In this document: positions 13,840-38,085 of the stretch, piece by piece
Layout: each line of letters begins with the position of its first letter
How positions within the stretch are numbered: the stretch's first letter is position 1
IMG/VR virus record: IMGVR_UViG_3300047557_001693
Coordinates: 1 to 64,000 of that record
Direction: 5' to 3' (one strand)
Origin: a virus
DNA: 64,000 nucleotides
Translations under genes and position numbers: made by a program
Notes under the pieces: model-generated
What the model was told of the DNA's origin: nothing
Databases searched by the model: none
Seen by the model: the letters and a program-made list of their open reading frames with translations, nothing else

Positions 13840-16374
13840 ATGAATAATTTAGTAATACAAGTACCACAACAAGCTCTATCAGATTCACAAAAGAATTTAG
13901 AGTGGGCTAAAAAATGTATAGATGCTGGGGAAAATGTATTAATGTTTGACTCATCTGTTACTAGACAAACCTTTTATAATAAGAAGGTTAACTACAGATT
14001 GAGAAACAATATGTTAACAGATAAAGATATTCAAGCTATATGTGAACCATATGGTATTGAGTTTTCATCATTTCCCAAAAGTATTCAACATATAGGTTTA
14101 GGTAATTCAAAAATAAACACCCTTGTTGGTGAAGAAGCTAAAAGATTAGCAAGATATCCTTTTAGAGCTTTTATTTCATCATCAGATCAAATGGGTATTT
14201 CTTCTAAAGAAGAACAAATTAGAGACATGTGGTATCAGAAACTGGTATCAATAGCACAAGCTAAAATGCAAGCTGCATTTCAAGGTCAAGAAATTGATCC
14301 TCAAGCAATGGAGGAAGAAATGCAGAAAGAATTAAGTAAGTTTGATAAATATTTAAAATATAACTTTCAAGATCTTAAAGAAATAACAGCTAATAAAATA
14401 CTTAAGTATGAGTATAAAAGGTTAAAAGTTGCTGATGTTTTCTTAAGAAGTTGGGAAGATTTTTTAATATCAGGTGAGGAAATTGTATGTATTGAAGAAC
14501 TTGGAAATGATATTGTATTTAGAAAAGTAAACCCTTTATATCTATTTACTATTCAATCACCTGAAACTTATAAAATTGAAGATGCAGACTGGATTGTAGA
14601 ATATACAATGATGTCTGTAGGTCAAGTAATAGATTATTTCCATGAATATCTTACTAAAGAACAAACTAGTAATCTTGAGCAAAGTAAAGAGTACAATGCA
14701 ATGAGAACTGGTGGTATTCAAATGGCTTACAACAGAGATATTACTGTTGAAGAAAGATTTGGATATACAGCAGGAGAATTGTTTGTACCTAACCAAATTG
14801 CTACACATTATTTTGGTGGTGCTTATGACCAAAGAGGTAATGTTAGAGTAATGAGAGTTTGTTGGAGATCTAGAAGAAAAATTGGTAAGGTAAGTTATTA
14901 TGATGAGTATGGTAGTCCACAAGAAAAGATTGTAGATGAATATTACAAGATTGATAAAGATGCAGGTGAAACTGTAAAATGGTTATGGGTTAATGAATGG
15001 TGGGAAGGTACTAAGATTGCTAATGATATTTATGTAAAGATTAGACCTATTCCTTATCAGTCAAGAAGCATGAGTAACTTGTCTGAAAGTAAACCACCTT
15101 ATGTAGGTGTATATTGTAATACTAATAATTCAAGAGTAATGTCATTCATGGATGTTATGAAACCTATGGATTATTTGTATGATATATTCTTCCATAGATT
15201 AAACCTAGCTATATCTAAGTATAAAGGTCCAATGTTGGCAATTAATACCAGCATGATTCCTTCAGAGTGGGATCCTCTCAAATGGTTACAGTATGCTGAA
15301 GCTACTAATGTAATGTTTATGGATCCTACTAATGAGGTACTTAAAGGACCACTTCAGGGTAAATCAGCAGGTACATACAATCAGTTAGCTGCAACAGGTA
15401 TTAATCTTGAAATGGGTAACTATATTAATCAGCATGTACAGTTACTATCATTTGTTAAACAACAACTTGATTTGATTTCAGGTGTTAATGAATATAGACA
15501 AGGTGATGTTAAAGGTGATGCTAATGTAGGTACATCTAATATGGGATGGACAGCATCTAACTCAATGACTGAAAAGTATTTTGCATTACATAACTCATTT
15601 AAAAGAGATTGTATGCAAAGATTATTAGAAGTTGCTAAATATGTATGGAAACAAAATCCACATAAAGCACAGTTTGTATTAGATGATATGGGTGCTGAAA
15701 TTGTAAGTTATTATGATGAGTTTTCAGAATCAGAATATGATATTCATATAGATGATGGACCAAACACACAAGAACTTATGCAAGCACTTAATCAACTTGC
15801 ACATGCAGGTATGCAGACTGGTCAGATTAAGTTTAGAGATCTTATTGAGATTTACAAGAAAGATAGTATATCTGCACTTGCTAGATACTTAGAAGAAGCT
15901 CAAGATAAGATTACTCAAGAGCAACAACAAATGCAGCAAATGCAACAAGAATCTCAAGAGAGAATGGCAGCTCAAGCAGCTGAACTTAAAGCTCAAGAAC
16001 TACAACTTGAAATGGAGAAACTTAATAGAGAAGATATTAATAGACAATTAGATAGAGAAAACAAGATTCAATTGGAAACTATTAGAGCTATGAGTTATGC
16101 TCAAGATCAAGATGTTAATCAAAATATGGTTCCTGATGTATTAGAACAAAGTAAACTTGCATTAGAACAACAAAAAGCAACTTATCAGCAAATTCAGAAA
16201 GAAAAAGAAATTAGAATGAAGGATCAACTTGAGCAAAGAAAAGTTCAAATTGAGAAAGAAAAAATCTCTTTAAAAGAGAAAGAAATAGAAGCTAAGAAAG
16301 AGATTGAAAAAATGAAATCTGAAACTGCATTAAAAGTTGCAAAAGAAAATAAGAATAAATATGATAAAAAATAA
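13840..16374 (+). CDS. Portal protein
   Basis: An 844-residue protein directly after the terminase, the expected place and size for a crass-like portal, which forms the dodecameric ring at one capsid vertex. The N-terminal and middle parts include ALSDSQKNLEWAKKCIDAGE, a basic LRNNMLTDKDIQAIC region, and a wing/stem-like stretch with PYVGVYCNTNNSRVMSFMD and ISGVNEYRQGD. From about residue 680 to the end it is a long Gln/Glu/Lys-rich coiled coil that could form the barrel inside the capsid. The family is assigned from order, length and overall layout rather than a diagnostic motif. Confidence 0.88.
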   Translation: MNNLVIQVPQQALSDSQKNLEWAKKCIDAGENVLMFDSSVTRQTFYNKKVNYRLRNNMLTDKDIQAICEPYGIEFSSFPKSIQHIGLGNSKINTLVGEEAKRLARYPFRAFISSSDQMGISSKEEQIRDMWYQKLVSIAQAKMQAAFQGQEIDPQAMEEEMQKELSKFDKYLKYNFQDLKEITANKILKYEYKRLKVADVFLRSWEDFLISGEEIVCIEELGNDIVFRKVNPLYLFTIQSPETYKIEDADWIVEYTMMSVGQVIDYFHEYLTKEQTSNLEQSKEYNAMRTGGIQMAYNRDITVEERFGYTAGELFVPNQIATHYFGGAYDQRGNVRVMRVCWRSRRKIGKVSYYDEYGSPQEKIVDEYYKIDKDAGETVKWLWVNEWWEGTKIANDIYVKIRPIPYQSRSMSNLSESKPPYVGVYCNTNNSRVMSFMDVMKPMDYLYDIFFHRLNLAISKYKGPMLAINTSMIPSEWDPLKWLQYAEATNVMFMDPTNEVLKGPLQGKSAGTYNQLAATGINLEMGNYINQHVQLLSFVKQQLDLISGVNEYRQGDVKGDANVGTSNMGWTASNSMTEKYFALHNSFKRDCMQRLLEVAKYVWKQNPHKAQFVLDDMGAEIVSYYDEFSESEYDIHIDDGPNTQELMQALNQLAHAGMQTGQIKFRDLIEIYKKDSISALARYLEEAQDKITQEQQQMQQMQQESQERMAAQAAELKAQELQLEMEKLNREDINRQLDRENKIQLETIRAMSYAQDQDVNQNMVPDVLEQSKLALEQQKATYQQIQKEKEIRMKDQLEQRKVQIEKEKISLKEKEIEAKKEIEKMKSETALKVAKENKNKYDKK

Positions 16375-31519: not shown

Positions 31520-31761
31520 CATATAAAATTATATCTACACGCACAACACCTGATGGTGTTTTATTTGCAAATGTTGAATATAACTTTGATGGATATATTT
31601 ATACAGCAGAGATTCCTATTCCTGTTCCATTGAATGAACAACAAATAACTGAAAGCATTGTAAATCATGGCAAAAGTGAACAATGGAGAAGAGAGGCTAT
31701 TGCCAACCTTCCTAACATAGTTGCATCATTACCATTGAATCAAGAAATAGTTATTGAGTAA
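31516..31761 (+). CDS. Small fibre-associated protein
   Basis: An 81-residue protein starting MTYKIISTRTTPDGVLFANV. It reads as three strands and a helix with QWRREAIANLPNIVASLPLN. Four-base and one-base overlaps fix it between two fibre genes, the usual place for a fibre chaperone or adaptor. I recognise no specific family. Confidence 0.6.
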   Translation: MTYKIISTRTTPDGVLFANVEYNFDGYIYTAEIPIPVPLNEQQITESIVNHGKSEQWRREAIANLPNIVASLPLNQEIVIE

Positions 31762-33482
31762 TGGCTTTAAGATATTGGGTAGGAGGTACTGGTAATTGGG
31801 ATGCAGCAAATACTGCAAACTGGTCTGCTACATCTGGTGGTGCAGGAGGCGCTTCTGTTCCAATAGTATCTGATGATGTATTCTTTGATGGAAATTCTGG
31901 TACTGGAACTGTAACTCTTACTGCAGCAGCAGTTGTAGGAACAATAGATTTTACAGGCTATACAGGAACGTTTAGATTTGGTGCAAATTTAACTTCTGGT
32001 AATACAACATTAGGCACAGGTACTACCTATACTACAAATGCTACAGTTACATCTTATAATTTTTCACCAAGAAATATTAACTCCACCTTTACAGCTAATG
32101 GTAAAATATTACCTGTAAATTTAAGTACTGGAGGTATGAGTGGAGGTAATACATTAACCTTTGCTGGAAATGCAGATTTTCAAGGTAATTTAATAACTAA
32201 CACAGCTACACATAATTATAAAGCTGCTACAGGAACTACAATTGATTTAAGGATTGGAGGCAATATTGATATTAGAGCTATGCTTACCAATGCTACTGAC
32301 CATGTTACGATTAAGGGATATGGTACTTCAAAAACATTTATTGCATCAGGTGGGGTTGCTACTAATTTAAGAGTTTCATTTGTGTCTGGAAGCACATATA
32401 CATCTGGTAGTAGTGGAAATATTGGAACTGGAAATCATTTCTTTACAGTAGAATCTGGAGGTCAATTTACGGCTGTTTCTACACATACATTTAGTAATGT
32501 AGGAACATTAACTTTATCAGGATTTAATGCTTCAAATAATTCAGACTTCATAGCTTATGTGCAAGGAACATTGTCGTTAGCAACAGATACTGTTATTAAA
32601 TCATTTATAAGAATTGATGGTCCAATGGTTATCACATCAACAGGTGGTTCAAGATTATTATTGGAAGGAAATTGGAATCATTCAAATACATCAAACTGCA
32701 CAATAGATATATTAGAATTTAGTGGTACAACAACAAGTACAGTAACAACTTGGACAAATACTACAACTATTCAAGTTAAGAGTTTAATAATAAATAAAAC
32801 AGGTGGTGGTAGTGTAGTATTTAATCCTGCTAATCCATTATATCCATTTAGATTGTTTATTCCAGCAGGATCAATATATTCTTGGACTCATACATCTGGT
32901 ACAGTTACTCAAAGCAGTACATCTGTAATATTTATAAGTGGAAATGCTGTTACTTCACAACTTAACTATTCATGTGCAGTTCCTTCTTTTAAGTTTTCTT
33001 ATTTAGAAATAAATACAGGAACACTAAATTTAAGTTCAACACTAAACTGTGCATTACTTAGATTATCACTTGCGTCAAATACAACATTTACATCTCCAAC
33101 AACATTTGGATTTACAGTAGATAGACTTCAAGCAATTAATACATCAAGTGCATTAAGAATTATTGTATTAAAATCAGCAGTTACATATAGCATATTGAAT
33201 GATTTACTTATGCTTGGAGGTGGACCTTTTGGTTCTATATCATTACTTGCATCAACAGCACCAACTAAAGCAATATTTAATTTAGAAAATACAGCTCAAC
33301 AGCAAGTTGAATTAGTTAATCCAACAAACATAGACTCATCAGGTAACAATGGTGTTGGTAGTCCAATAAAGCAGACTATTTATACTTTTAATGGAACCAT
33401 TACAACTACCTTCAATTGGGGAACGGGTATAGCTCCTGTACCTTCAACTGCTGCAACTGTTGGATATACCTTTGTAAATTAA
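31761..33482 (+). CDS. Tail spike-like beta-helix protein
   Basis: A 573-residue protein starting MALRYWVGGTGNWDAANTAN. The RYWVGGTGNWDA...NWSATSGG opening with SDDVFFDGNS is a phrase I know from many phage spike or fibre proteins. The rest is a long series of short strands with Thr/Asn/Gly turns (SGNTTLGTGTTYTTNATVTS) as in right-handed beta helices. No catalytic residues can be assigned, so I cannot say whether it degrades a polysaccharide. It is the last fibre gene before the lysis block. Confidence 0.65.
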   Translation: MALRYWVGGTGNWDAANTANWSATSGGAGGASVPIVSDDVFFDGNSGTGTVTLTAAAVVGTIDFTGYTGTFRFGANLTSGNTTLGTGTTYTTNATVTSYNFSPRNINSTFTANGKILPVNLSTGGMSGGNTLTFAGNADFQGNLITNTATHNYKAATGTTIDLRIGGNIDIRAMLTNATDHVTIKGYGTSKTFIASGGVATNLRVSFVSGSTYTSGSSGNIGTGNHFFTVESGGQFTAVSTHTFSNVGTLTLSGFNASNNSDFIAYVQGTLSLATDTVIKSFIRIDGPMVITSTGGSRLLLEGNWNHSNTSNCTIDILEFSGTTTSTVTTWTNTTTIQVKSLIINKTGGGSVVFNPANPLYPFRLFIPAGSIYSWTHTSGTVTQSSTSVIFISGNAVTSQLNYSCAVPSFKFSYLEINTGTLNLSSTLNCALLRLSLASNTTFTSPTTFGFTVDRLQAINTSSALRIIVLKSAVTYSILNDLLMLGGGPFGSISLLASTAPTKAIFNLENTAQQQVELVNPTNIDSSGNNGVGSPIKQTIYTFNGTITTTFNWGTGIAPVPSTAATVGYTFVN

Positions 33483-33488
33483 TTAACT

Positions 33489-33947
33489 ATGACTAAAATA
33501 ACTAAAACAAGTAAAAAAGGTGTAGACCTTATTAAAAAGTATGAAGGATTTAGTTCTAAACCATACCTCTGTCCTGCTAATGTAGCTACAATTGGTTTTG
33601 GTGCAACATTCTATCCTGATGGCACTAAAGTTAAATTAACTGATGATCCAATAAATGAAGCTGTTGCTGAGGTTATTCTAAAGAAACATTTAGAAAAATT
33701 TGAGCAATATGTAGATAGTTATTGTACAGATGCTTTAAATCAAAATCAATTTGATGCATTAGTATCTTTTTGTTTTAATCTTGGTCCAGCTAATCTTAAA
33801 GCTAGTACATTATTAAAGAAAGTAAATGCTAATCCAAATGATCCTACTATAAGAACTGAGTTTATGAAGTGGGTAAAAGCAGGTGGTAAAACTCTTAAAG
33901 GTCTAGTTAGAAGAAGAGAAGAAGAAGCAAGTTTATACTTTAGTTAG
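33489..33947 (+). CDS. GH24 lysozyme (endolysin)
   Basis: A 152-residue muramidase that hydrolyses the MurNAc-GlcNAc bond of peptidoglycan. The catalytic pattern is E19 (KKYEGF), then residue C28 in YLCPANVATIGFG, then T34, with spacing E-8-C-5-T equal to the E-8-D-5-T of T4 lysozyme, so the usual Asp is replaced by Cys. YLCP variants are common among lysozymes of Bacteroidota phages. The C-terminal FCFNLGPANLKASTLLKK and GLVRRREEEASLY motifs are standard. There is no signal peptide, so a holin must release it. Confidence 0.92.
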   Translation: MTKITKTSKKGVDLIKKYEGFSSKPYLCPANVATIGFGATFYPDGTKVKLTDDPINEAVAEVILKKHLEKFEQYVDSYCTDALNQNQFDALVSFCFNLGPANLKASTLLKKVNANPNDPTIRTEFMKWVKAGGKTLKGLVRRREEEASLYFS

Positions 33948-33955
33948 TATATTTG
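33948..33955 (+). promoter_or_regulatory. Promoter -7 box (TATATTTG) directly before the exported-protein gene
   Basis: TATATTTGTA lies just after the lysozyme stop and ends five bases before the next ATG, so its mRNA would start at about the start codon. It suggests that the exported cassette has its own transcript inside the lysis block. No clear -33 TTTG is seen. Confidence 0.55.
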
Positions 33956-33960
33956 TATAT

Positions 33961-35313
33961 ATGATTAGGTATATTTTAATTATACTATTTATATATACTA
34001 AAGTATATTCACAAGGTTCTAATACTTGTACAGGTGCTGCAGCTAATCCTGTAACTTTACCATTCTTTACTAATAATCAAACTACTTGTGGTGATTTAAA
34101 TGATTATACAGGAAGTAATCCATGTATATTTACAACCACAGGTAATTATTATGGTGGACAAGATTGGTTATATAGTTTTGTTCCACCTCAAGATGGTTAT
34201 ATAAATATTGTTCTTAATGATGTACAACCAGCTACAAATACATATCCAACACTTGTATTATCAAGTGCATGTCCTGGAACTGCAGGAGCATGTATGGGAT
34301 TTTCAATATATAATCCAGCAACTAGTAATGCATCTATAGTTGAATATGTACAAGGAGGTCAAACTTACTTTGTTTTAGTAGATACTTATGTTTGGGGAAA
34401 TATATTTTCAAACTGTTATCAATTTGATTTAAATATTCAATTTACTCCTGTACCAGTTCAACCTGCTTGTACTAATATTGGATTTAGTAATAACAATTTT
34501 ACAGGATGGTTTGGTACAACAGGTTTATCTACAAGAGCATACATTGGTGCACCAACACCTAATTATGATGCAACAGCATTAGGTATAGTTAATGGAAGAC
34601 ATACTATAATGACAGGTGGTAATGATCCTTGTGCAGGATTTCCAAGAGTAGATCCATTAGGTGGACCATTTTCTGTTAGATTAGGAGATGCTAATGTTAA
34701 TTCTCAAGCAGAACAATTAACACAAACATTTATGGTAACTAATACTAATAATAGTTTTACATATAGATATGCTGTAGTGTTTGAAGATCCTGGTCATACA
34801 TCTAATGAACAACCTTTTTTTAGAGCATTATTAAGAGATCAGAATGGTAATGTTATTCCATGTTCAGAATTTGTAGTATCTGCTGCTGGTAATTTACCTG
34901 GATTTTTTAACTCACCAAACTGTACAGGAGTTAGATATAAACCTTGGAGTACAGTAAATGTAGACCTAGATAACTATATAGGACAAGCAGTTACAGCAGA
35001 ATTTACTACAGGAGATTGTACTCAAAGTGCACACTATGGTTATGCTTATATAGATGCTGCATGTTCACAATCATTTTTAGATGCATATCCTGATACTATA
35101 TGTGTAGGAGAAACTATAACATTAACTGCACCTAATGGTTATCAATCTTATCAATGGTTACCTACTAATCAAACTACACAAAGTATTAATGTTACACCAT
35201 CTGTAAGTACAAATTATCAATTAAATTTAGTATCATTTAATGGATGTGTTAGAACAGTTCAGTTACCCATTGTAGTTGTACCAGATCCTACTGCTGCTAT
35301 ATACACAAACTAG
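33961..35313 (+). CDS. Exported host-like surface protein (gliding-motility/T9SS-associated domains)
   Basis: A 450-residue protein with signal peptide MIRYILIILFIYTKVYSQ. Domain 1 (about 20-165) is a Cys-containing beta domain with FVPPQDGYINIVLND and QGGQTYFVLVDTY, like the pre-peptidase C-terminal type. Domain 2 (about 170-370) matches a module I know from large secreted gliding-associated proteins of Flavobacteria: NFTGWFGTTG, GRHTIMTGGNDPCAGFP, FRYAVVFEDPGH-type strands and HYGYAYIDAAC. Domain 3 is a PKD/Ig-like unit (DTICVGETITLTAPNGYQSY) ending PDPTAAIYTN at the stop. Nothing like this is needed for virion assembly. It is probably exported to the host surface; its purpose is unknown. 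Confidence 0.8.
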   Translation: MIRYILIILFIYTKVYSQGSNTCTGAAANPVTLPFFTNNQTTCGDLNDYTGSNPCIFTTTGNYYGGQDWLYSFVPPQDGYINIVLNDVQPATNTYPTLVLSSACPGTAGACMGFSIYNPATSNASIVEYVQGGQTYFVLVDTYVWGNIFSNCYQFDLNIQFTPVPVQPACTNIGFSNNNFTGWFGTTGLSTRAYIGAPTPNYDATALGIVNGRHTIMTGGNDPCAGFPRVDPLGGPFSVRLGDANVNSQAEQLTQTFMVTNTNNSFTYRYAVVFEDPGHTSNEQPFFRALLRDQNGNVIPCSEFVVSAAGNLPGFFNSPNCTGVRYKPWSTVNVDLDNYIGQAVTAEFTTGDCTQSAHYGYAYIDAACSQSFLDAYPDTICVGETITLTAPNGYQSYQWLPTNQTTQSINVTPSVSTNYQLNLVSFNGCVRTVQLPIVVVPDPTAAIYTN

Positions 35314-35339
35314 GTACAATAAGTAGTATAATTTTTGCT

Positions 35340-35347
35340 TATATTTG
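35340..35347 (+). promoter_or_regulatory. Promoter -7 box (TATATTTG)
   Basis: TATATTTGCA in the 81-base gap matches TAnnTTTG and would give a leader of about 40 bases. The leader contains CATAAGATA and TATCTTATG, which can pair as a 9-bp hairpin ending at the start codon of the next gene. Confidence 0.6.
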
Positions 35348-35394
35348 CAGTGAAATAAGGTGTTTCATAAGATATACGATGTAATATTTATCTT

Positions 35395-35862
35395 ATGAAA
35401 TACAAATTTTTAATATCATTTTTTGCAATATTACTGTTTTCAGTAGGAAGTTCTCCAGAACCTTTTACAAAAGGTGATGTAAGAATTGTACCTATTATTG
35501 AGAATGAAGATCTAGGTCCTAAGTATTGGTACATAAGGACTATTAAACTGTATTATAAAGATAAATTACCTCATGGGATAGAACTTAGAAAAGGTCCTCC
35601 TTTGGATTCTTATTGTTCTGATGAGACTGATTTAACATTTTACTCTAACTCTGATTCATTAACTATCAAGAGTCATAGTAGACTTTCTTGTGAAATATTA
35701 GCAATGTATAACTTGTCAGAAAAAGAGTCTGATTGGTTAAAATCTCATTTAGTATATAGATTAAAAATATACAATATAGTTACTGAAAATAAGTATTATA
35801 TCTATGTAGATAATGTATCTTATTTTAAGGATTTATTTAACAAATATAATGTAAACTATTAG
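35395..35862 (+). CDS. Exported protein of unknown function
   Basis: A 155-residue protein with signal peptide MKYKFLISFFAILLFSVGSS. The mature part is beta-rich with two Cys (SYCSDETDL and RLSCEILAMY) that could form a disulfide, followed by an amphipathic helix (SEKESDWLKSHLVYRLKI). It has its own promoter, and a hairpin (CATAAGATA/TATCTTATG) just before its ATG may hide the start codon and regulate translation. It sits among three other exported proteins. I do not recognise the family. Confidence 0.65.
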   Translation: MKYKFLISFFAILLFSVGSSPEPFTKGDVRIVPIIENEDLGPKYWYIRTIKLYYKDKLPHGIELRKGPPLDSYCSDETDLTFYSNSDSLTIKSHSRLSCEILAMYNLSEKESDWLKSHLVYRLKIYNIVTENKYYIYVDNVSYFKDLFNKYNVNY

Positions 35863-35910
35863 GTATAAATGGTAATCTGTATATTAAGTATATTTGTTAA
35901 AAGATTTGTT

Positions 35911-36471
35911 ATGAAAAATTTGTTTTTGTCATTATTTTTTATATTGTTAACTATAACAGTATTTGGACAGGTACCAACACCTAATATTGCTGATGGACAA
36001 GTAGTATGTCCTAATGCAGTACATTTCTATGGAGATCAAGTAATTAACCCTACTTCAACATATACATTTAACATTTTACCTCCACAAGCATTTACTGTTG
36101 TTGGACAACAAATACAAGTTACTTGGTTAACACCTGGAGTATACACTATGACTATGACAGAAACTAATGCAGCAGGTTGTCAATTTGTAACAGTAGCTAA
36201 TATAACTGTACAACCTAATGTTATTGCTACAATAGACCCTATAGTATTATGTCAAGATGGTGGTAATGTAACTATTACAGGACAAAATCTTGGTACTAAT
36301 CCTATATTTAATGGACCTGGAGTATCAGGAAATACTTTTAACCCTGCAGGATTAGCTCCTGGAACTTATAATATAACTGTTGTTTCTCAGACTGCAAATG
36401 GCTGTTCTATTACTGGAGCAGGTACTGCAACTGTAGAACCTTTACCTACTGGAATAATATATACTGACTAA
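35911..36471 (+). CDS. Exported PKD/Ig-like repeat protein
   Basis: A 186-residue protein with signal peptide MKNLFLSLFFILLTITVFGQ. I chose this ATG because the signal peptide starts there. Two PKD/Ig-like modules follow, the first with TPGVYTMTMTETNAAGCQFV and the second with LAPGTYNITVVSQTANGCSI. It ends with the PLPTGIIYTD tail, nearly the same phrase as the end of the 450-residue exported protein. The modules are typical of large T9SS-secreted adhesins of Bacteroidota. Its TAA stop overlaps the ATG of the sorting-domain protein, so the two are coupled in translation and may work together. Confidence 0.75.
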   Translation: MKNLFLSLFFILLTITVFGQVPTPNIADGQVVCPNAVHFYGDQVINPTSTYTFNILPPQAFTVVGQQIQVTWLTPGVYTMTMTETNAAGCQFVTVANITVQPNVIATIDPIVLCQDGGNVTITGQNLGTNPIFNGPGVSGNTFNPAGLAPGTYNITVVSQTANGCSITGAGTATVEPLPTGIIYTD

Positions 36472-37022
36472 TGAAATATACACTACTTACATTATTGATA
36501 AGTATGAATCTCATGGCACAAACAACATATGAATTATGTGATTCATATATTCAGAAGGAAATAAGAGCAAACACTTCAGCACAATCTATAAACTGGAGTG
36601 TTTCCCCTTTAATACCTTATCAAGTTAATGATGATGTTATGACAATAACTATCAGTGACTTGGGTACATATGTAATTACTGCTACTTTTAGCAATGGTTA
36701 TTGTTATACTAAAGACTTATTAGTATTACAAATCATTGAATGTAAGGAAAGTTTTTTATGGATACCTAATTCATTTACACCTAATGATGATAGAGTTAAT
36801 GATACATTTGGTGCTTATGGAATTAACATTAAAGATTTTAAACTTACTATCTGGAATAGATGGGGAGAATTACTTTTTGTAAGTAATGATTTAAACAATA
36901 GATGGGATGGTACATACAAAGGTGAAATTTGCCAAGATGATGTCTATACCTATAAACTTAGTTATAAAGATGTAAACAATAAACAATACACCAAATTTGG
37001 TAGAGTAACACTTTTTAAATAA
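36471..37022 (+). CDS. Exported protein with T9SS type B sorting domain (CHU_C)
   Basis: A 183-residue protein with signal peptide MKYTLLTLLISMNLMAQ, a short beta domain, and from about residue 95 to the end a full gliding-motility-associated C-terminal domain. The landmarks are WIPNSFTPNDDRVNDTF, then LTIWNRWGELLF, RWDGTYKGE, DDVYTYKLSYKD and a final GRVTLFK. In Bacteroidota this domain sends proteins through the type IX secretion system to the cell surface or outside. The family match is clear by eye. That the phage protein really uses host T9SS is inference. It follows the PKD-repeat gene with overlapping stop and start. Confidence 0.88.
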   Translation: MKYTLLTLLISMNLMAQTTYELCDSYIQKEIRANTSAQSINWSVSPLIPYQVNDDVMTITISDLGTYVITATFSNGYCYTKDLLVLQIIECKESFLWIPNSFTPNDDRVNDTFGAYGINIKDFKLTIWNRWGELLFVSNDLNNRWDGTYKGEICQDDVYTYKLSYKDVNNKQYTKFGRVTLFK

Positions 37023-37030
37023 CCTAACTT

Positions 37031-37339
37031 ATGAATCAACCAATTCTTTTAGCTTTAATTGCACTAGGTTCAGCTGTAGTAACTACAATTGTACCTAGAT
37101 TATTTAGTAAAAAGAAAGATACAGTAGATATGCTTGCTGAAATTCAAGATAAACTATATAGTGAAATAGATAGACTTGAAAAAAAGATTACTATTCTTGA
37201 ACAAAGAGAACATGAAGCATATCTATTAGAAGAAAAATTAGTTAAAAGAATAGCAGAATTAGAACAAGAAAATATAAGACAAGCAAATGAAATTCAACAA
37301 CTTAAAGCAGAACTTGAGAAATATGTCAAAAATAGTTAA
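37031..37339 (+). CDS. Membrane-anchored coiled-coil protein, lysis-block candidate
   Basis: A 102-residue protein with one N-terminal transmembrane segment (ILLALIALGSAVVTTIVPRL) followed by a continuous charged coiled coil to the end (AEIQDKLYSEIDRLEKKITI...). This layout is like inner-membrane spanins or holin partners. It overlaps the holin candidate by 17 bases and stands two genes before the M15 peptidase, so a role in lysis is likely. A DNA-ejection or structural role cannot be excluded. Confidence 0.6.
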   Translation: MNQPILLALIALGSAVVTTIVPRLFSKKKDTVDMLAEIQDKLYSEIDRLEKKITILEQREHEAYLLEEKLVKRIAELEQENIRQANEIQQLKAELEKYVKNS

Positions 37340-37583
37340 GAACTCTTTCATTGAATCTTTTAAAGGAAACAATGGTAAGATAGATCATAAAAGATTAACT
37401 GTATTTGCATTTGTAATAGGATTCTTTATTACAACAGGAATTATACTTTATAAAAAAAATCAAATACCTAATTCAGAATTAGTAGAAATAGTATTAATAA
37501 CAATGACATCTGTTATACTAGGAGGGATGGGTTTGACTAAAATAAAAACAAAAATAGAAAAACAGACAGAAAATGAAACTTAG
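37323..37583 (+). CDS. Holin candidate
   Basis: An 86-residue protein starting MSKIVKNSFIESFKGNNGKI. Two hydrophobic stretches, VFAFVIGFFITTGIILY and VEIVLITMTSVILGGMGL, are separated by a short polar loop, and the ends are highly charged. This matches class II holins, which make inner-membrane holes that free the endolysin. It overlaps the M15 peptidase gene by 11 bases and follows the coiled-coil gene. The longer reading from an upstream ATG would overlap more and lengthen the soluble N-terminus. The assignment is by topology and neighbours. Confidence 0.65.
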   Translation: MSKIVKNSFIESFKGNNGKIDHKRLTVFAFVIGFFITTGIILYKKNQIPNSELVEIVLITMTSVILGGMGLTKIKTKIEKQTENET

Positions 37584-38085
37584 TAGAAACTTTAGCTTAG
37601 ATGAGATGTTAAAATCTCAGACAGCAAGTAGATGGGGATTTGATGAGCAATTCAATCCTCCTGATGAGGTAATAAACAATTTAACTTTGTTGTGTACAAA
37701 AGTACTACAACCTATTAGAGATGCATTAAAAGCTAGTATTACTGTAACTTCAGGTTATAGATGTCCTAGACTTAATGCTAAAATAGGTGGTGCATATACT
37801 ATTATTAATGGTAAACCTGTACAAACTTCACAGCACTGTTATGGTCAGGCAGCAGATATTAACTTTATTAAAGATGGTAAAGAATTTAATGGTTCTTTAG
37901 TATCTGTAATAAAAGATTTATGTGCAGATCCTGATTTTAAATTTGATCAATGTATATTAGAATTTGGTTCTGATGAGAATCCTTCATGGATTCACATATC
38001 ATATTCTAATGATAACAATAGAATGCAAGTATTAAGAGCATATAAATCTGGTAAAAAAACTTTATACAAACCCTGGAAACTATGA
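37573..38085 (+). CDS. M15 family peptidase (endolysin)
   Basis: A 170-residue zinc D-Ala-D-Ala carboxypeptidase/L-Ala-D-Glu endopeptidase type. The N-terminal SLDEMLKSQTASRWG and the VTSGYRCPRLNAKIGGA motif are standard for Peptidase_M15_3. Zinc ligands appear as SQHCYGQAADI (H and D) and WIHIS (H). The enzyme cuts peptide cross-links of peptidoglycan and probably works with the GH24 lysozyme encoded 3.6 kb upstream. No signal peptide is present. The stop overlaps the next gene by four bases. Confidence 0.9.
   Translation: MKLSRNFSLDEMLKSQTASRWGFDEQFNPPDEVINNLTLLCTKVLQPIRDALKASITVTSGYRCPRLNAKIGGAYTIINGKPVQTSQHCYGQAADINFIKDGKEFNGSLVSVIKDLCADPDFKFDQCILEFGSDENPSWIHISYSNDNNRMQVLRAYKSGKKTLYKPWKL

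Follow-up and report, generated by a model that had tools for sequence, protein, structure and literature searches.

We examined a cassette of genes at positions 33948-37022 of a 64,000-nucleotide stretch of phage DNA (positions 1 to 64,000 of the IMG/VR virus record IMGVR_UViG_3300047557_001693, hereafter the window), where four consecutive genes code for proteins with signal-peptide-like N-termini. The first, third, and fourth are named A, B, and C, and the second, gene 2, codes for a protein of 155 amino acids (aa). Homology searches identify A, B, and C as a recurrent cassette in unrelated phages of Bacteroidota, and we consider it moderately probable that they are the pieces of a split type B surface protein of the type IX secretion system (T9SS), displayed together through the docking of short C-terminal tails. 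The case is built on features of the sequences: the sorting domain, the split architecture, the tails, homology between domains, natural fusions in the same order, and the exchange of A.

C is a short T9SS carrier of 183 aa (36471-37022, plus strand, as are all cassette genes; its start codon shares one base with the B stop codon), composed of a signal peptide, an Ig-like domain (D1, 36525-36743; hidden Markov model (HMM) CD1, 61 bits), and a CHU_C / type B T9SS sorting domain (36762-36992). An earlier note on this DNA had recognized the sorting domain from the sequence alone, and all motifs that it quoted are present in the translation of 36471-37022, which also scores 60.9 bits against PF13585 (cut-off 27) and 53.4 bits against TIGR04131 (cut-off 35). 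The domain is located at the extreme C-terminus of C and is the only CHU_C domain in the 92.5 kb record, and 14 control genomes were silent. The PF13585 and TIGR04131 searches of A, B, and the 155 aa protein gave no CHU_C match, and A and B are not counted as substrates with a T9SS C-terminal domain (CTD). Thus, the description of the four genes as an exported cassette with a T9SS domain holds as far as signal-peptide-like N-termini are concerned, but the sorting domain is confined to the last gene. Signal peptides were judged by a crude N-terminal hydrophobicity score together with a conserved N-terminal pattern, and on this basis all four genes (starts at 33961, 35395, 35911, and 36471) have signal-peptide-like starts, as had been claimed. 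The scores of genes 1, 2, and 3 (2.93, 3.0, and 3.03, the last from position 35911) are among the highest of the open reading frames (ORFs) in the record. Gene 4 scores weaker (2.16), and its N-terminal pattern (MK, a hydrophobic run, and Q) is conserved in its homologues; the pattern ending in Q is conserved across the A, B, and C families.

A (33961-35313) is predicted to be an exported head protein of 450 aa without a sorting domain. Its residues 168-369 (34462-35067) form a module, the A-core, that is conserved both among the A proteins of phages and among T9SS type B proteins of Bacteroidota, where it was found in 80 loci; the earlier remark that gene 1 carries a module known from gliding-associated proteins was therefore justified. 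B (35911-36471) is a putative exported adapter of 186 aa with two Ig/PKD-like domains, for which 28 homologues were aligned. The ORF list starts this gene at 35869, which is probably wrong since the homologues begin at the Met at 35911, and the upstream start adds 14 residues ahead of the signal peptide. Gene 2 (35395-35862), also exported by prediction, was found in gene maps of crAss-like cassette members only, and its product is 77% identical to that of L019 and 45% to that of L130. Searches of Pfam, NCBIfam, and PHROG gave no family for A or the 155 aa protein.

Relatives of the cassette were collected from other virus records, which may be incomplete. With gene 1 as query 30 viral loci were matched, and 40 with an alignment of A, whereas the alignment of C yielded 278 relatives, from which 80 loci were retained. 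The earlier note had suggested looking for the same cassette in related phages, and according to gene maps the A-B-C trio is present in the crAss-like phages L005, L019, L129, and L130, as well as in the window. It is also found in L008, a 128 kb phage with queuosine-type genes, and in virus records up to 322 kb. Members of the A family (about 290-460 aa) consist of a signal peptide, a beta-sandwich, and a PKD-like domain, those of the B family (about 186 aa) of a signal peptide and two Ig-like domains, and those of the C family (about 187 aa) have the architecture described above. In other phages the A position is taken by different proteins of about 190-630 aa, for which Pfam, NCBIfam, and PHROG yielded little beyond PKD. 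A fold search with a model of A (pLDDT 65) returned weak beta-sandwich matches only, with TM-scores of about 0.2, and no function was drawn from it. Compared to the crAss-like L130, the window proteins are 47% (A), 60% (B), and 52% (C) identical, and the neighboring lysozyme and M15 peptidase 64% and 73%. Compared to the unrelated L006/L008 phage, A is 82% identical, whereas B and C are only 49% and 41% identical, so on sequence identity A has moved between phage groups and is exchangeable. Three CHU_C matches from a cultured collection were inspected; two are long and fused rather than split (phages of 634 and 642 kb), and the third is on a 4.2 kb scaffold on which no cassette was detectable. 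At the other extreme of size, L026:9415-9750 codes for a CHU_C protein of just 111 aa that consists solely of a signal peptide and the sorting domain; the same record has, in addition, a complete B-C pair that follows a lysozyme gene (L240).

What is separate in these phages is joined in cellular Bacteroidota. There, the A-core is found in long single proteins, and 70 of the 72 complete ones, counted by hand, end in CHU_C; the two exceptions are one masked ORF and one apparently broken ORF. Among unique phage proteins the A-core is a separate ORF in 27 cases and fused to CHU_C in 3. Another set of CHU_C proteins from phages, of about 650-820 aa, contains an A-like region, the whole B profile (about 110-163 bits), and a C part. 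The joins in the fusion of L222 (..VVGNITS/LDTIC.. and ..AISQIQNN/LGNST..FIELC.., with the slash marking the join) resemble the tails VGNITHN and VLSPIQHN of split proteins. Natural fusions are classical evidence for association between proteins that are separate elsewhere, and the A'-B-C fusions suggest that A, B, and C assemble in this order. The fused genes (L222:1629-7577 and similar loci) are situated in a myovirus structural block, two genes past the tail sheath gene.

What the earlier note had missed is a conserved C-terminal tail on both A and B which, together with the CHU_C protein, points to a split A-B-C system. The tail follows the pattern P.P....I.[HT][ND], with endings such as SPIQHN, GIISHD, AIYTN, and TIFTN. 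In the window it reads VPDPTAAIYTN in A (35278-35310) and EPLPTGIIYTD in B (36436-36468), both assigned by motif statistics. In the B family, conservation reaches 96% for the Pro and 93% for the Ile of the tail, compared to a column mean of 58%. Counting unique proteins, we found the tail near a short CHU_C ORF in 17 of 18 A proteins and in 51 of 110 other exported phage proteins, and elsewhere in 1 of 72 other exported phage proteins and in 2 of 807 phage proteins without a signal peptide. The contrast of 51/110 with 1/72 corresponds to a p value of 5e-13, calculated on related sequences that are not independent. No CHU_C protein has the tail, and neither does any of the 496 proteins of host A-core loci. 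Of 22 short-C loci with upstream sequence that were found through C alone (hand count), 19 have a neighbor with a canonical tail and two (L163 and L212) one with a variant tail. Covalent joining of the tail to a partner was set aside because no leaving residue follows the terminal N or D. Lone tailed A genes were observed at L013:9834-11359, L009:9818-11356, and L018:4212-5754, with a tail sheath gene alongside on the opposite strand and a conserved 54 aa ORF (KNLKISKEVHDILKKYCDKRGIKIY) upstream; no CHU_C was found in these records.

The tails may dock on the first domain of the next protein, i.e., that of A on D1 of B (35998-36213; HMM BD1) and that of B on D1 of C. A comparison by hhalign identifies these two domains as homologues (probability 97%, E 3e-11). 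Docking of A on B and of B on C would predict that C has a B-type domain in cassettes without B, and this is the case in L025 and L029, where the domain scores 98 and 85 bits as B-type versus 20 and 11 bits as C-type. Together with the third case, L028, discussed below, two of three such sequence tests were passed, from which we infer docking. An AlphaFold2 (AF2) model of the B-C read-through chain of L192, in which the two genes share a frame, reached a pLDDT of 84.5 and a pTM of 0.59. The B tail is ordered in this model (mean 89 for residues 181-190) and the signal-peptide linker disordered, whereas in a model of isolated A the tail end is disordered.

The phages appear to depend on their hosts for export. 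A PorP/SprF gene was found in none of 24 virus records, while three host genomes contain 7-11 each, which makes the earlier proposal that the phage uses the host T9SS likely. Shuttles of the PorP/SprF kind bind type B CTDs and serve as their anchors (PMC9143113, PMC12618676), and therefore C should rely on a host shuttle. The best cellular matches to A (59-61%) come from a small Bacteroidota order, of which 10 genomes were covered. In this order, a chromosomal operon (L254:3982-16065, and also L255, L256, L287, and L288) codes for exported proteins with the tail, two or three in number (..TTPIYHD, ..TSPIFHD), for a CHU_C protein that resembles D1 of phage B in its first domain (35-54 bits), and for a PorP/SprF protein (in L254 at 15031-16065). 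This apparently undescribed operon came to light by inspecting matches to a short tail pattern, which as such showed no enrichment in 18 related host genomes (11 matches versus 14 in a reversed control). A longer tail pattern gave only scattered single matches outside G037 among 297 Bacteroidota genomes. The B profile, which detects the phage genes at 1e-47 or better, found no host gene in 118 genomes at 1e-25, a search in which no genome served as positive control. The order with the tail operon is a plausible host group or donor.

From these data we infer association, co-export, and display of the three proteins to the benefit of the phage, which might proceed as follows. A, B, and C would each enter the periplasm by their own signal peptide, after which the host T9SS and a PorP/SprF-like shuttle of the host would recognize C through CHU_C, so that C becomes anchored to the outside of the cell. 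Lacking a sorting domain, B and A would join C in the order A-B-C and be displayed along with it, each docking by its short tail on the N-terminal Ig-like domain of the following partner, with A as an exchangeable outer head. The benefit would be an altered surface of the infected cell. Superinfection exclusion is the role that we favor, albeit tentatively and at somewhat less than even chances, and could come about by masking adhesins that serve as phage receptors, or by competition for the adhesin shuttles. Bacteroidota phages use gliding/T9SS proteins in adsorption, with the exported adhesins SprB and RemA as possible receptors (PMC13288928). A phage mini-adhesin that shares a module and a shuttle type with host adhesin-like proteins could mask or displace such receptors, and since some Bacteroidota phages need gliding/T9SS proteins for adsorption, this offers a testable route to superinfection exclusion. 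Display may also be real but serve adhesion, aggregation, or particle attachment, which fits the split architecture and seems to us possible, if somewhat unlikely. The B-C profile matches the Aureispira protein GhpA (E 9e-57), Ig-chain adhesin folds were matched, and the A-core is shared with host adhesin-like proteins, but the repeats behind these matches are of the generic Ig/PKD and CHU_C kinds, no target for binding is known, and the fold search was weak.

Several observations weigh against tail docking in an A-B-C complex. In L028, C carries a C-type domain (51 versus 8 bits) while the predicted B was absent from the record, and L211 is the one short-C locus without a tail neighbor. The AF2 result would be consistent with docking, yet it shows no interface and comes from an artificial read-through chain. 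L011 and L013 have a tailed A and no CHU_C in records of 71.5 and 94.8 kb, which are perhaps incomplete. Finally, the A and B tails are alike within one genome, which is also expected if one common factor reads both. These last two points, and the similarity of the tails on all tail proteins of a host operon, would suit a tail that is a sorting or assembly signal for a host factor, with A and B exported or anchored independently and C being one more member. We regard this as unlikely, since tails cluster next to short CHU_C genes and are missing next to fused ones, the A-B-C order is preserved in natural fusions, and in two cases out of three the domain type of C depends on whether B is present. 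Less probable still is that only C is bound to the surface by the T9SS, and that A and B, like any other protein of the periplasm or released from the cell, just share the operon; they lack a sorting domain, but these very regions belong to one covalent chain with CHU_C both in hosts and in the fused proteins of phages, and the conservation of the tail would have no explanation. That the three proteins belong to the virion (as decoration, fibre, or neck) and have misleading signal-peptide-like N-termini is highly improbable: Ig-like virion proteins are frequent, the fused CHU_C gene of L222 is close to a tail sheath gene, and the CHU_C gene of the window is near structural genes, but neither the conserved signal-peptide pattern with its final Q nor a complete type B sorting domain at the very C-terminal end would be of use for virion assembly in the cytoplasm.

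T9SS substrates have been described as each having a sorting domain of their own, and a ride on a CHU_C carrier by means of a tail would, if true, be a new export route in Bacteroidota. For several phage groups it would be a shared modular means of remodelling the surface of their infected hosts. Whether this reflects a general, undescribed class of split T9SS complexes, in which tailed proteins without a sorting domain dock on a CHU_C carrier, present in one Bacteroidota lineage and, in miniature, in many unrelated phages as a modular display of exchangeable heads on infected cells, is in our judgment evenly balanced.

The phage itself is crAss-like and belongs to the Crassvirales on the basis of its capsid, portal, and terminase. 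Its 92.5 kb record has matches for all three, the major capsid protein matches crAss-like phages at 32-33% over 99%, and the crAss-type matches phrog_6681, phrog_6547, and phrog_11589 were found. Contamination of the contig by host DNA is unlikely because the same cassette recurs in the near-identical L004 and L005 and in the crAss-like L019, L129, and L130. The four genes sit between a lysozyme gene (endolysin, 33489-33947, plus strand; PF00959, 138.7 bits) and an M15 peptidase gene (endolysin, 37573-38085, plus strand; PF08291, phrog_894). The lysis-block setting that the earlier note had emphasized is thus real here and is shared by other crAss-like relatives, but not by most other cassette phages; outside the crAss-like group, such linkage was seen for one B-C pair (L240, a 294 kb phage record). 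As the linkage is not general, the cassette is less likely to act in lysis. Immediately upstream of the lysozyme gene, 31761-33482 codes for a 573 aa protein (RYWVGGTGNWDAANTANWSATSGG) without a family match, possibly a tail fibre. Two small overlapping genes between C and the M15 gene (37031-37583) code for proteins of 102 and 98 aa with N-terminal or central membrane-like segments; both genes are conserved in crAss-like relatives and are holin/spanin candidates.

The earlier statement that no phage system of this kind has been described does not hold, since phage genes with T9SS sorting domains have been published. Cryophage carries three type A T9SS cargo genes, for which hijacking of the system and superinfection exclusion have already been proposed (PMC7468147), and a study of BACON domains reported genes with T9SS sorting domains from one cluster of gut phages whose BACON domains are crAss-like (PMC6949934). 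The Cryophage genes resemble the cassette in having a T9SS C-terminal domain and in varying between phage variants (PMC7468147), but their type A domains are located on enzymes and a PA14 protein, one each, and no split cassette or tails were reported. The gut-phage genes were reported in passing and contain BACON repeats, with no A-B-C cassette (PMC6949934). Literature searches, limited to openly licensed papers, found no split system or C-terminal tail. Donor-strand assembled pili, in which an Ig domain lacks a strand and receives it from an extension of its partner, are an analogy for the tail only. The B tail is ordered in the single-chain B-C model and the A tail disordered in lone A, with no interface given by the models, and the cassette is not classed as a member of that group. 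The SprB-SprF pair of Flavobacterium johnsoniae and PG1035-PorP-PorE of Porphyromonas gingivalis likewise combine a type B domain with cargo anchored by a PorP/SprF-like shuttle (PMC9143113, PMC12618676), and PG1035 is a non-essential surface type B protein; unlike the phages, these organisms provide their own shuttle, and no tailed partners were reported. The Aureispira grappling hook protein GhpA, matched by the B-C profile and, at its base, by fold, shares Ig/PKD-like repeats and a CHU_C end but is a single cellular protein of 5898 aa. The host tail operon has the same layout, with consecutive exported proteins ending in I[YF]HD followed by a CHU_C protein, and differs in its much longer proteins, its own PorP/SprF gene, and its chromosomal location.

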